A stretch of DNA of 64,000 nt, taken from the NCBI RefSeq assembly GCF_003386795.1, contig NZ_QTUC01000001.1, forward strand, positions 2,046,001 to 2,110,000. The letters are read 5' to 3'. Below the pieces are notes generated by a model. It saw nothing but the letters and a program-made list of their open reading frames with translations, did no database searches and was not told where the DNA came from. The number at the start of each line of letters is the position of its first letter. Within the stretch, counting starts at the first letter, position 1. Positions 11,655 to 31,426 of the stretch are shown here, piece by piece. The position numbers and the translations under genes are program-made. This DNA comes from Thermasporomyces composti. GTDB lineage: Bacteria; Actinomycetota; Actinomycetes; Propionibacteriales; Actinopolymorphaceae.

Positions 11655-11990
11655 CTCCTGCCGCTACCGAAGTCCATCCCCACCAGCGGCGGAGTTGCCT
11701 GAAAGGTCATGACAATTTAACGCAGGGATCTGACACACGTCGAGACCCGCCTACTACTCGCGGTCAGGAGATACGTACAACGCGAGGCGCCATCACAACC
11801 GGCCGCTCCGCCTCCCAGAAGAGCCGGTCGGTCTTCGCCAGTAGCCCTTTGGGGAACCTTCACCCCACGGCTACCACGGCGAGCCAGACTCACCGCAGGT
11901 GCCCCGAACCATGCGCCATGCGCGGCCTTCCGGGCACCTCGACCAACCGGTTGCACGCGAACCCGACCACCGCGTCGGTCTGAGTCTCCG
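11655..11990. other. intergenic stretch between pseudogene and tRNA-Ser
   Basis: About 336 bases with no gene I can support. Short open frames on both strands have actinobacterial third-position G+C only by chance and match nothing I know. No integrase, inverted repeat or second copy of the tRNA 3' end was seen. Confidence 0.5.
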
Positions 11991-12081
11991 CGGAGGGCGT
12001 GGGATTCGAACCCACGACCGAGAGGGGTCCCTCGGTAGCGGTTTTCAAGACCGCCGCACTAGGCCACTATGCGAGCCCTCC
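11991..12081 (-). tRNA. tRNA-Ser (anticodon UGA)
   Basis: The leftward 91-base sequence folds as a class II tRNA. The acceptor strands GGAGGGC (12075-12081) and GCCCTCC (11992-11998) pair and are followed by discriminator G73, as in serine tRNAs. The anticodon stem GCGGT/ACCGC encloses the loop CTTGAAA, giving anticodon TGA, which reads UCA. There is a long variable arm and a TTCGAATCC T-loop. CCA is not encoded. The 3' end faces the defence operon, so an element integrated at this tRNA would lie on exactly that side. Confidence 0.95.
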
Positions 12082-28876: not shown

Positions 28877-28941
28877 AGGCCCCTTTCCGCGAAGGGGCCT
28901 GACCGGTGGGTATGGCACGTGGACGGCCCCTAGCGGGGCCG
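28877..28941 (-). promoter_or_regulatory. competing attenuator hairpins in the metG leader
   Basis: On the sense strand, segment 1 CGGCCCC (28935-28941) pairs with segment 2 GGGGCCG (28924-28930), with the leader stop codon TAG at the loop. Segment 3 AGGCCCCTT (28892-28900) pairs with segment 4 AAGGGGCCT (28877-28885), 9 pairs followed by the pyrimidine-rich TCCTCGTGT. Segment 2 can instead pair with segment 3 (GGGGCC with GGCCCC), preventing the 3:4 stem. This is the classic four-segment layout of ribosome-mediated attenuation. The U tract after stem 3:4 is weak. Confidence 0.65.
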
Positions 28942-28968
28942 CATCATCTCCTCGTGCCGGAACGTCAT
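28930..28968 (-). CDS. leader peptide with tandem Met codons upstream of metG
   Basis: A 12-codon frame reads MTFRHEEMMRPR then TAG. Met codons are at positions 1, 8 and 9, with the 8-9 pair immediately before hairpin segment 1. A ribosome waiting for Met-tRNA at codons 8-9 would cover segment 1 and free segment 2 to form the antiterminator; one that reaches the stop would cover both and let the terminator form. The ATG is preceded by TATCAT and seven bases, so it is probably the first transcribed codon (leaderless). Peptide length and codon position are identical to the trp leader at 60332-60370. Expression of the peptide is inferred, not shown. Confidence 0.6.
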   Translation of the reverse strand: MTFRHEEMMRPR

Positions 28969-28975
28969 GCCGGCG

Positions 28976-28981
28976 ATGATA
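28976..28981 (-). promoter_or_regulatory. -10 box of the metG leader
   Basis: TATCAT (TANNNT consensus) ends seven bases before the leader ATG at 28968, placing the probable transcription start at or next to that codon. No clear -35 hexamer is visible. Confidence 0.55.
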
Positions 28982-29074: not shown

Positions 29075-29965
29075 TCAGGGACGGTCGACGTCGTCGAACC
29101 ACCGGCTGAGCTCGAGCGCCACGCCGTCGTCGTCCACGCTCGCCGTCACGTCGTCGGCGACGTCCTTCACCTCGCTGGCGGCGTTGCCCATCGCGACCCC
29201 ACGGCCGGCCCACGACAGCATCTCCAGGTCATTGCTGCCATCGCCGATGGCGAGCACGTCCTCGCGACGGATACCCAACCGCTCGGCGACCTTGGCCAGA
29301 CCGGTCGCCTTGCTCACACCCTCCGGCGCGAGGTCCAGCCAGGCGGTGTAGCCGATGTAGTAGGACACCCCGTGCAGACCGACCCGGTCGATCACGTCCA
29401 GGAAGTGCTCGGCCTCGATCGACGGCTCGCGCAGGATGACCCGGGTGGCCGGGTCGTTGACGAGGTTCTCGAGCGGCTCGATGCTGATCCGTCCGGTGAG
29501 CTCGCCCGGTGGGAAGGGAGCGTTGACGCGGTAGCCGACGCCGAGCTCCTCCACGGCCACCAACGCCTCGGGGAGCCTGGCCAGCAGCATCCGAAGCACC
29601 GGGGCCGGGTCGAAGGTCACCAGGTCGATCACCTCGACACCGCGGTCGTCGACCGGCCCGTCCGACCGCCCCTCCGACGCGAGTGAGCCGGCCTCGGGGT
29701 GCAGACGTACCACCACCGCGCCGTTGCTGCAGACCAAGTACGGCTTGGGCAGGTCGAACTGCTCCGCGACCGGCCTGGTGGCGGTGAGCCCACGCCCGGT
29801 GGCCAGCACCACGTGCGCGCCCGACTCGACCACCCGACGAGCGGCCCGCTCGACCGCGGGCGAGATCCGACCCTGCAGGTCGATGAGAGTGCCGTCGATG
29901 TCGAGCGCCACCATCCGCGGCCGCCACCCCGCGGTGCCTGGCGTGGGCTCGTCGTGACGGGTCAC
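29075..29965 (-). CDS. HAD superfamily phosphatase, Cof-type, coupled to serS
   Basis: 296 residues. The HAD motifs are [21 protein letters not shown], a Lys in [13 protein letters not shown] and [16 protein letters not shown], with an HAD-IIB cap. The GTG start overlaps the serS TGA in a GTGA (29962-29965), so the two are translationally coupled. This serS-HAD arrangement occurs in many actinobacteria. Substrate unknown, probably a small phosphorylated metabolite. The gene ends about 94 bases upstream of the metG leader promoter. Confidence 0.9.
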
Positions 29966-31236
29966 GCCAGCGGCTCCAGACGAGCCCGTCCTCCCAGGTA
30001 AGGCTGCAACGCCTTGGGCACGCGGACCCCACCGTCCGCTTCCTGGTGGTTCTCCAGGAGGGCGACGATCGCCCGGGCCACCGCGACGAGCGTGCCGTTG
30101 AGGGTGGCGACGTAGCGGGTGCCGGTGTCGTCACGGAACCGGATAGCGAGTCTGCGCGCCTGGAACTCCGTGCAGTTCGAGGTGGAGGTCACCTCGCGGT
30201 AGCGGCCCTGGGTGGGAAGCCAGGCCTCGATGTCGAACTTGCGGGCCGCGCTGGCGCCGAGGTCACCGGCGGCGGTGTCGATGACGCGGTACGGCACCTC
30301 CAGCTTGTCCCAGAACTCCTTCTCCCACGCGAGGAAGCGACGGTGCTCCTCCCGCGCCTCGTCGGGGTGGCAGAAGGAGAACATCTCCACCTTGTCGAAC
30401 CAGTGGACGCGGATGATGCCGCGGGTGTCCTTGCCGTAGGAGCCGGCCTCGCGCCGGAAGCACGGGCTGAAGCCGGCGTAGCGCAGCGGCAGCTGGTCGG
30501 CCCGCAGGATCTCGTCGCTGTGGTAGGCGGCCAAGGGAACCTCGGAGGTGCCGACGAGGTAGAGGTCGTCCCGCTCGAGCCGGTAGACGTCGTCGGCGGC
30601 CTGGCCGAGGAAGCCGGTGCCCTCCATCGCCCTGGGCTTGACCAGGGACGGCGGGATCACCGGCGTGAACCCGTAGCTCAACGCCTGGTCCACGGCCATG
30701 TTGACGAGGGCGAGCTCCAGCAGGGCACCGACGCCGGTGAGGTAGTAGAAGCGCGCGCCGGACACCTTGGCCCCTCGTTCGACGTCGATCGCACCGAGGA
30801 TCCGGCCAAGGTCCACATGGTCGCGCGGCGCGAACCCCTCGGCGGCGAAGTCGCGCGGCTGGCCGACCTCCTCGAGCACGACGTAGTCGTCCTCCCCACC
30901 CGGGGGCACGTCGTCCTCGACGAGGTTGTCGATCTGGAGGCTGAGCCGCTGGTACTCCTGCTCGGCCTCGGCCATCGCCGCCTCGGCCGCCTTGACCTGT
31001 GCGGCCAGCTCGCGGGTGCGCGCGAGAAGCTGCTGCTTCTCGTCTCCCTGCGCACGCGGGATCTGCTTACTGAGCCCCTTCTGCTCCGACCTGAGCTGTT
31101 CGTACGACGCGATCGCCGACCGGCGACGCTCCTCGGCGGCGAGCACCTGGTCGACCAGCTCCACCGAGGCGCCGCGCCGTCGCTGGCTCTCGCGCACTCG
31201 CTCGGGATTCTCGCGCAGCAGCTTGGGGTCGATCAC
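29962..31236 (-). CDS. serS: seryl-tRNA synthetase
   Basis: 424 residues from GTG 31236 ([18 protein letters not shown]). The N-terminal coiled-coil arm that grips the long variable arm of tRNA-Ser spans about residues 30-100. The class II motifs follow: motif 2 in [14 protein letters not shown] and motif 3 in the C-terminal [16 protein letters not shown]. The longer frame to 31296 is not needed: TACGCT at 31244-31249 lies seven bases before the GTG, indicating a leaderless transcript and fixing the start. Its substrate tRNA gene is at 11991-12081. Confidence 0.96.
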
Positions 31237-31243
31237 GGCATCG

Positions 31244-31249
31244 AGCGTA
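31244..31249 (-). promoter_or_regulatory. -10 box of serS, leaderless start
   Basis: TACGCT followed by seven bases and the GTG start codon. The identical hexamer at the same distance precedes pheA (44952-44957). Confidence 0.55.
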
Positions 31250-31426
31250 ACCGGCCACCCGACCCCATCCGCCACCGGTTTCCGGTGCGGGTCCACGTGC
31301 TGTCCATCCCGATCTGTCCGCCGGCTCCCTGGTCAGCGAGCGGCGACCCGGGACCGCCCGAGGAGAGCGCGGAGCGAAACCCCAGCCCGCCCCGGTGAGA
31401 CGTCCCGGTGAGGGCGAGGGGTAGAC

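Follow-up and report, generated by a model that had tools for sequence, protein, structure and literature searches.

The window (the whole stretch of 64,000 nt that was analysed) carries on its minus strand a HAD-family gene (29965-29075) and metG (28818-27157), separated by 256 nt. A serS-like (seryl-tRNA synthetase) ORF is located upstream of these two genes (29962-31296, minus strand), and a tRNA-Ser(TGA) gene is present at 11990-12081 on the same strand. The region between the HAD-family gene and metG contains a short frame, ATG ACG TTC CGG CAC GAG GAG ATG ATG CGG CCC CGC TAG (28968-28930, minus strand). It is the only short frame on either strand of the 64 kb that has adjacent internal Met codons together with a TAnnnT motif 5-8 nt upstream. 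The features of the locus, in the direction of transcription, are listed below.

28981-28976 (-): putative -10 promoter element TATCAT, 7 nt 5′ of the leader ATG (TAnnnT motif)
28968-28930 (-): leader peptide frame MTFRHEEMMRPR, 12 codons, stop TAG (all 64 related loci have such a frame containing Met codons)
28968-28966 (-): leader start ATG (sequence)
28958-28953 (-): 5′ arm of the outer helix P0, GGCACG (other families have a corresponding helix of different sequence)
28947-28942 (-): tandem, putatively regulatory Met codons 8 (28947-28945) and 9 (28944-28942) (in-frame test and folding maximum)
28941-28935 (-): segment 1, CGGCCCC (folding)
28932-28930 (-): leader stop TAG (sequence)
28931-28924 (-): segment 2, AGGGGCCG, predicted partner of segment 1 or segment 3 (folding; RNAalifold on alignment A1)
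28919-28914 (-): 3′ arm of P0, CGTGCC (pairs with GGCACG)
28900-28892 (-): segment 3, AGGCCCCTT, predicted 5′ arm of the terminator and 3′ arm of the antiterminator (folding)
28885-28877 (-): segment 4, AAGGGGCCT, 3′ arm of the terminator-like hairpin, -16.0 kcal/mol (folding)
28828-28824 (-): metG Shine-Dalgarno sequence AGGAG, predicted to be paired (folding)
28818-27157 (-): auxiliary methionyl-tRNA synthetase (MetRS) gene metG, 553 aa, motif GTDDHAIK (TIGR00398 above cut-off)

An earlier note, made from the letters of this DNA, had described the 12-codon frame with Met codons at positions 8 and 9 and four competing segments; the coordinates and pairings are all borne out by the sequence. 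Segments 1 and 2 can form a hairpin of seven pairs, CGGCCCC (28941-28935) with GGGGCCG (28930-28924). Segments 3 and 4 form a terminator-like hairpin of nine pairs, AGGCCCCTT (28900-28892) with AAGGGGCCT (28885-28877), followed by a poor U tract, TCCTCGTGT. The antiterminator is the pairing of AGGGGCC in segment 2 (28931-28925) with GGCCCCT in segment 3 (28899-28893). The earlier note did not mention the -10 element TATCAT or the outer helix GGCACG/CGTGCC. This helix, P0, encloses the Met codons and hairpin 1:2, and the predicted ribosome-free fold of the leader is a single long hairpin of two storeys, with the terminator-like hairpin downstream of it. The fold from the ATG to the terminator has z = -2.9 compared with dinucleotide shuffles. 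From the position of TATCAT, 7 nt before the ATG, the frame appears to be leaderless, with its promoter at about 28981; this would make a transcription start downstream of 28930 unlikely.

To examine conservation we used 64 upstream regions belonging to one MetRS clade. They come from Actinopolymorphaceae, other actinobacteria, actinomycete and Rhizobiaceae plasmids, and a single metagenome-assembled genome (MAG), on which the occurrence in Chloroflexota rests. A short frame with internal Met codons was found in all 64. The two comparisons that the earlier note had proposed both came out in its favour: no related metG leader differs in where its Met codons stand, and the competing stems recur in relatives, with different sequences. 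Examples of the leader peptides are MTFRHQEMMRPR in Actinopolymorpha, MNSFPSQQMMPR in family f3, MITFECRRAMMPRRRGC in Streptomyces longispororuber, MNATTAASMMRLHRGT in Sanguibacter, MTQCTQPMMRPVRGPLRVR in family f23, MSTARVTAEAASPRMMLMSMPSGLFRAS (with a GTG start) in genus g48 and MTTYAVMMTP in family f20. Rhizobiaceae plasmids carry MNRSLANATMMMPRS and three more MMM versions, and the leader peptide of the Anaerolineae MAG begins MSIASFITTFFMMSMVMRM.

A TAnnnT motif is present 6-8 nt 5′ of the start in 56 of the 64 leaders, in which it also helped to pick the start. To avoid circularity, the start was set by the promoter motif alone and an independently located ATGATG, a sequence expected about 0.02 times per 150 nt, was then checked for being in frame and open. 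This was the case in 47 of the 47 testable loci, against an expectation of one third (p = 4e-23); nine loci stood outside this test, including the six rhizobial ones (leaderless starts are less clear there). ATGATG was absent upstream of the 18 actinobacterial housekeeping metG genes examined and upstream of three further loci (L107, L120 and L121). Met accounts for 13.5% of internal leader residues. Within family A2 the amino acid varies at 12 of 18 non-start codons and the last Met (Met9) is constant, and a single Met codon is retained in L088, L089, L094 and L096. Judged by these sequences, the conserved part of the leader is the codons and the peptide is otherwise free.

Independent recognition of the element was obtained with an Infernal covariance model (R1) built from f23 (A2) leaders only and hence tuned to one family. 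Its best match in the window was the leader described here (28965-28875, E = 0.0033). Over 395 genomes of the class the model gave 18 matches, of which 17 lie directly before metG of the clade, indicating that the element goes with that gene; the remaining one is an unrelated terminator next to a tRNA. The 17 include one frameshifted and one internally deleted copy of metG whose leaders survive; decayed auxiliary metG genes of these two kinds, with the Met-codon leader retained, are L139 (genome G102) and L141 (genome G146).

RNAalifold on A1 selected helix 2:3, and formal base-pair covariation was modest within one alignment. Because MAFFT failed to align hairpin 1:2 across families (A1), shuffle controls and a stall-position profile were employed. 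Each nascent leader RNA was folded as far as the terminator loop, with the ribosome-covered stretch blocked and the A site placed at a chosen codon, and the upstream pairing of segment 3 was computed. Mean antiterminator pairing in 48 non-redundant leaders was 0.32 with no ribosome, 0.13 with the ribosome at the stop codon and 0.74 when it stood at the first Met codon; for the window leader this last value was 0.78, and the other two states gave 0.36 and 0.19. Blocking RNA normally lowers pairing, and shuffled leaders behaved in this way: the difference between stalled and ribosome-free states was -0.07 in shuffles (standard deviation of set means 0.03) versus +0.42 in the real leaders. The mean profile peaked at the Met codons, with 0.75, 0.74 and 0.72 at codons -1, 0 and +1 relative to the first Met; it was 0.55-0.58 upstream of the peak, and 0.53, 0.46 and 0.41 just after it. 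L105 and L106 failed the stall-response test, L036 and L104 could not be distinguished from their own shuffles, and L100 failed after being scored on a wrong hairpin. Overall, the folding model agrees with the mechanism suggested in the earlier note: stalling at the Met codons is predicted to free segment 2 for segment 3.

The earlier note had also named metG as the controlled gene. The leader does precede metG; however, the gene is not the housekeeping one but a second MetRS of patchy distribution, and the housekeeping metG has no such leader. Two MetRS genes are present in the source genome (G000, a single contig of 4.37 Mb). The one outside the window (G000:C1:1283628-1285088) groups with housekeeping enzymes of the order and is without a Met leader. 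The window MetRS falls into a separate clade (support 99), outside which lies the leader-less L107. In nearly all clade members GTDD[NHG] replaces the housekeeping GTDEHG, and the window MetRS and many other clade members have Phe in place of the second His of the HIGH motif (PHLGF). These enzymes may have an altered inhibitor sensitivity.

Among the 395 genomes of the class, no more than 36 have a match to the window MetRS at E <= 1e-120. The f3 genomes hold at least three separate lineages of clade MetRS, and clade MetRS genes are found on plasmids or second replicons of Streptomyces, Embleya and Rhizobiaceae; no relative was found among viral contigs. The patchy spread, the several lineages and the plasmids form the pattern of an auxiliary gene moving between genomes. 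Forty-two carrier genomes were checked for a second MetRS. All 18 carriers of f1, f3 and f23 have one (two or more matches), as do most others; in the usual case the controlled gene is a second and apparently mobile MetRS. In 13 genomes of genus g48 (family f21; G095, G142 and G274 among them) and in G225 the clade enzyme was the only MetRS found, with one match at E <= 1e-20, a result bounded by the sensitivity of the search; three of the 13 are single-contig assemblies. In g48 and G225 the leader-controlled MetRS therefore appears to be the only one.

These data are best explained by a classical ribosome-mediated transcription attenuator in which a leader peptide senses the supply of charged Met-tRNA and thereby regulates the auxiliary MetRS gene; we consider this very probable. 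From the anatomy, the conservation and the predicted structural response we infer the start site, translation, stalling, termination and induction as follows. RNA polymerase would take the A of the leader start codon as the first nucleotide of the transcript, and translation of the leaderless frame would begin with a 70S ribosome and fMet-tRNA. When elongator Met-tRNA is plentiful, the ribosome would run on to the stop codon, which lies between segments 1 and 2, and mask segment 2; hairpin 3:4 would then form and transcription would end. When Met-tRNA is short, for example through inhibition of the housekeeping MetRS or lack of methionine, the ribosome would stall at Met8 or Met9. It would then cover segment 1 and P0, so that 2:3 pairs, no terminator forms and metG is transcribed. 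An untranslated leader would form P0 and 1:2, leaving metG off.

As Met starts every protein, the sensor would have to separate a shortage of elongator from a shortage of initiator Met-tRNA, a problem which to our knowledge is not met with in other amino-acid leaders. Low Met also reduces initiation with fMet-tRNA, and in the model this favours the off state. Severe loss of Met-tRNA would thus switch metG off again, and moderate loss would be the inducing range.

As far as the predictions go, the system works like a leader-peptide attenuator in these defining features: a short frame with cognate codons (64 loci, in frame in all 47 that could be scored), competing hairpins 1:2, 2:3 and 3:4 that exclude one another, with codons placed for stalling (predicted by folding), and a downstream gene in the pathway of the sensed amino acid (metG, TIGR00398). 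More tentatively, and at somewhat less than even probability, the alternative and possibly inhibitor-tolerant MetRS with its own Met-tRNA sensor may be a mobile unit, silent until the housekeeping MetRS fails. If so, one actinobacterial genus, with the unit as its only MetRS, would have turned the loop from backup into homeostasis.

The best of the other explanations, although an unlikely one, is that hairpin 3:4 is no real terminator and the leader acts mainly on translation or on Rho-dependent termination, a stalled ribosome opening the ribosome-binding site of metG or hiding a Rho site. The U tracts are poor. The earlier note had called that of the window weak, and rightly so; there it follows a strong stem. 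The number of U residues after the hairpin in relatives ranges from 0 to 6 of 8 nt, the tract being lacking in some of them (0-1 in 8 nt) and hardly any U being left in the Frankia-like group C. Where U is scarce, the hairpin may terminate transcription inefficiently or only with the help of Rho or NusG. Mycobacterial Cys leaders without terminators have also been described (PMC1262725). Against this, the hairpin is strong (mostly -15 to -24 kcal/mol in actinobacteria) and its spacing from the Met codons is nearly always the same, and T-rich tails are present in rhizobial and several actinobacterial versions. For translation, pairing of the metG Shine-Dalgarno sequence somewhat exceeds that in shuffles (unpaired fraction 0.31, against 0.42), but this pairing is independent of segment 4, the freeing of which leaves it unchanged (0.29 against 0.31). 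A second layer of control, in which segment 4 would open a hairpin sequestering the Shine-Dalgarno sequence, was rejected on these grounds, the pairing being only a little above shuffles. A hairpin GCGCUCCUC/GAGGAGCGC (28849-28819) does cover this sequence, and similar ones occur in several relatives, weakly above shuffles.

It is still less probable that the leader is a drug-sensing arrest leader, like those of erm genes and whiB7, in which the signal is a general slowing of ribosomes and not Met-tRNA. Such leaderless short frames do occur in actinobacteria, and whiB7 provides an example of stalling on a uORF (PMC13236596). However, the peptide is free to vary except at the Met codons, these sit where stalling has its predicted effect, and the gene under control is the cognate synthetase. 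As for a chance association of a random short frame with the ordinary terminator of the HAD-family gene, short frames are common and that gene ends only about 100 nt from the leader, but conservation in 64 of 64 loci, 47 of 47 in frame and the match to a remote model contradict it, and its probability is negligible.

Attenuation by Met-tRNA can be compared with several known systems. Attenuators of trpS and leuS were predicted in Streptomyces by Seliverstov et al. (2005; PMC1262725), who reported that methionine operons in Actinobacteria are not preceded by RNA structures. According to the work of Vecchione and Sello (2010) as it is cited in PMC4787780, the gene for an auxiliary tryptophanyl-tRNA synthetase in S. 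coelicolor is under ribosome-mediated attenuation. Leader peptides also precede hisS paralogues in bacilli (PMC2965389). A Met-codon leader or such a metG attenuator was not found in the literature searched, which covered few subscription papers. Nor did the leader match the T-box or any other Rfam family; the Rfam scan of the window returned one tRNA only.

If the proposed mechanism is correct, leader-peptide attenuation also senses methionine, which is unique among amino acids in that initiation and elongation draw competitively on one synthetase. The prediction is that an essential drug-target enzyme can be inducibly replaced, both in actinobacteria of soil and from plasmids of rhizobia, and the predicted Met-responsive switch could be tested with simple reporter fusions.

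Like T-box leaders of Firmicutes, the leader would sense tRNA charging to control a synthetase gene, but there the tRNA binds the T-box RNA directly. With the attenuators of trp, his, leu, ilv, thr and pheST in Proteobacteria and with the mycobacterial ilvB1 leader (PMC13236596) it shares four segments and a stall codon beside segment 1; those respond to other amino acids and serve mostly biosynthetic operons. It resembles the trpS and leuS attenuators of Streptomyces in having a leader peptide with cognate codons and an antiterminator competing with a terminator upstream of an aminoacyl-tRNA synthetase gene, and, on the cited account, the S. coelicolor tryptophanyl-tRNA synthetase case in that an auxiliary enzyme is controlled. 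Unlike the trpS and leuS attenuators, its codons are Met, which also starts every peptide, and its range extends beyond Streptomyces to many families of actinobacteria, to plasmids of Rhizobiaceae and to a single MAG from Chloroflexota. The novelty of the system is in the amino acid sensed, in its broad and partly plasmid-borne distribution and in its tie to an alternative MetRS.
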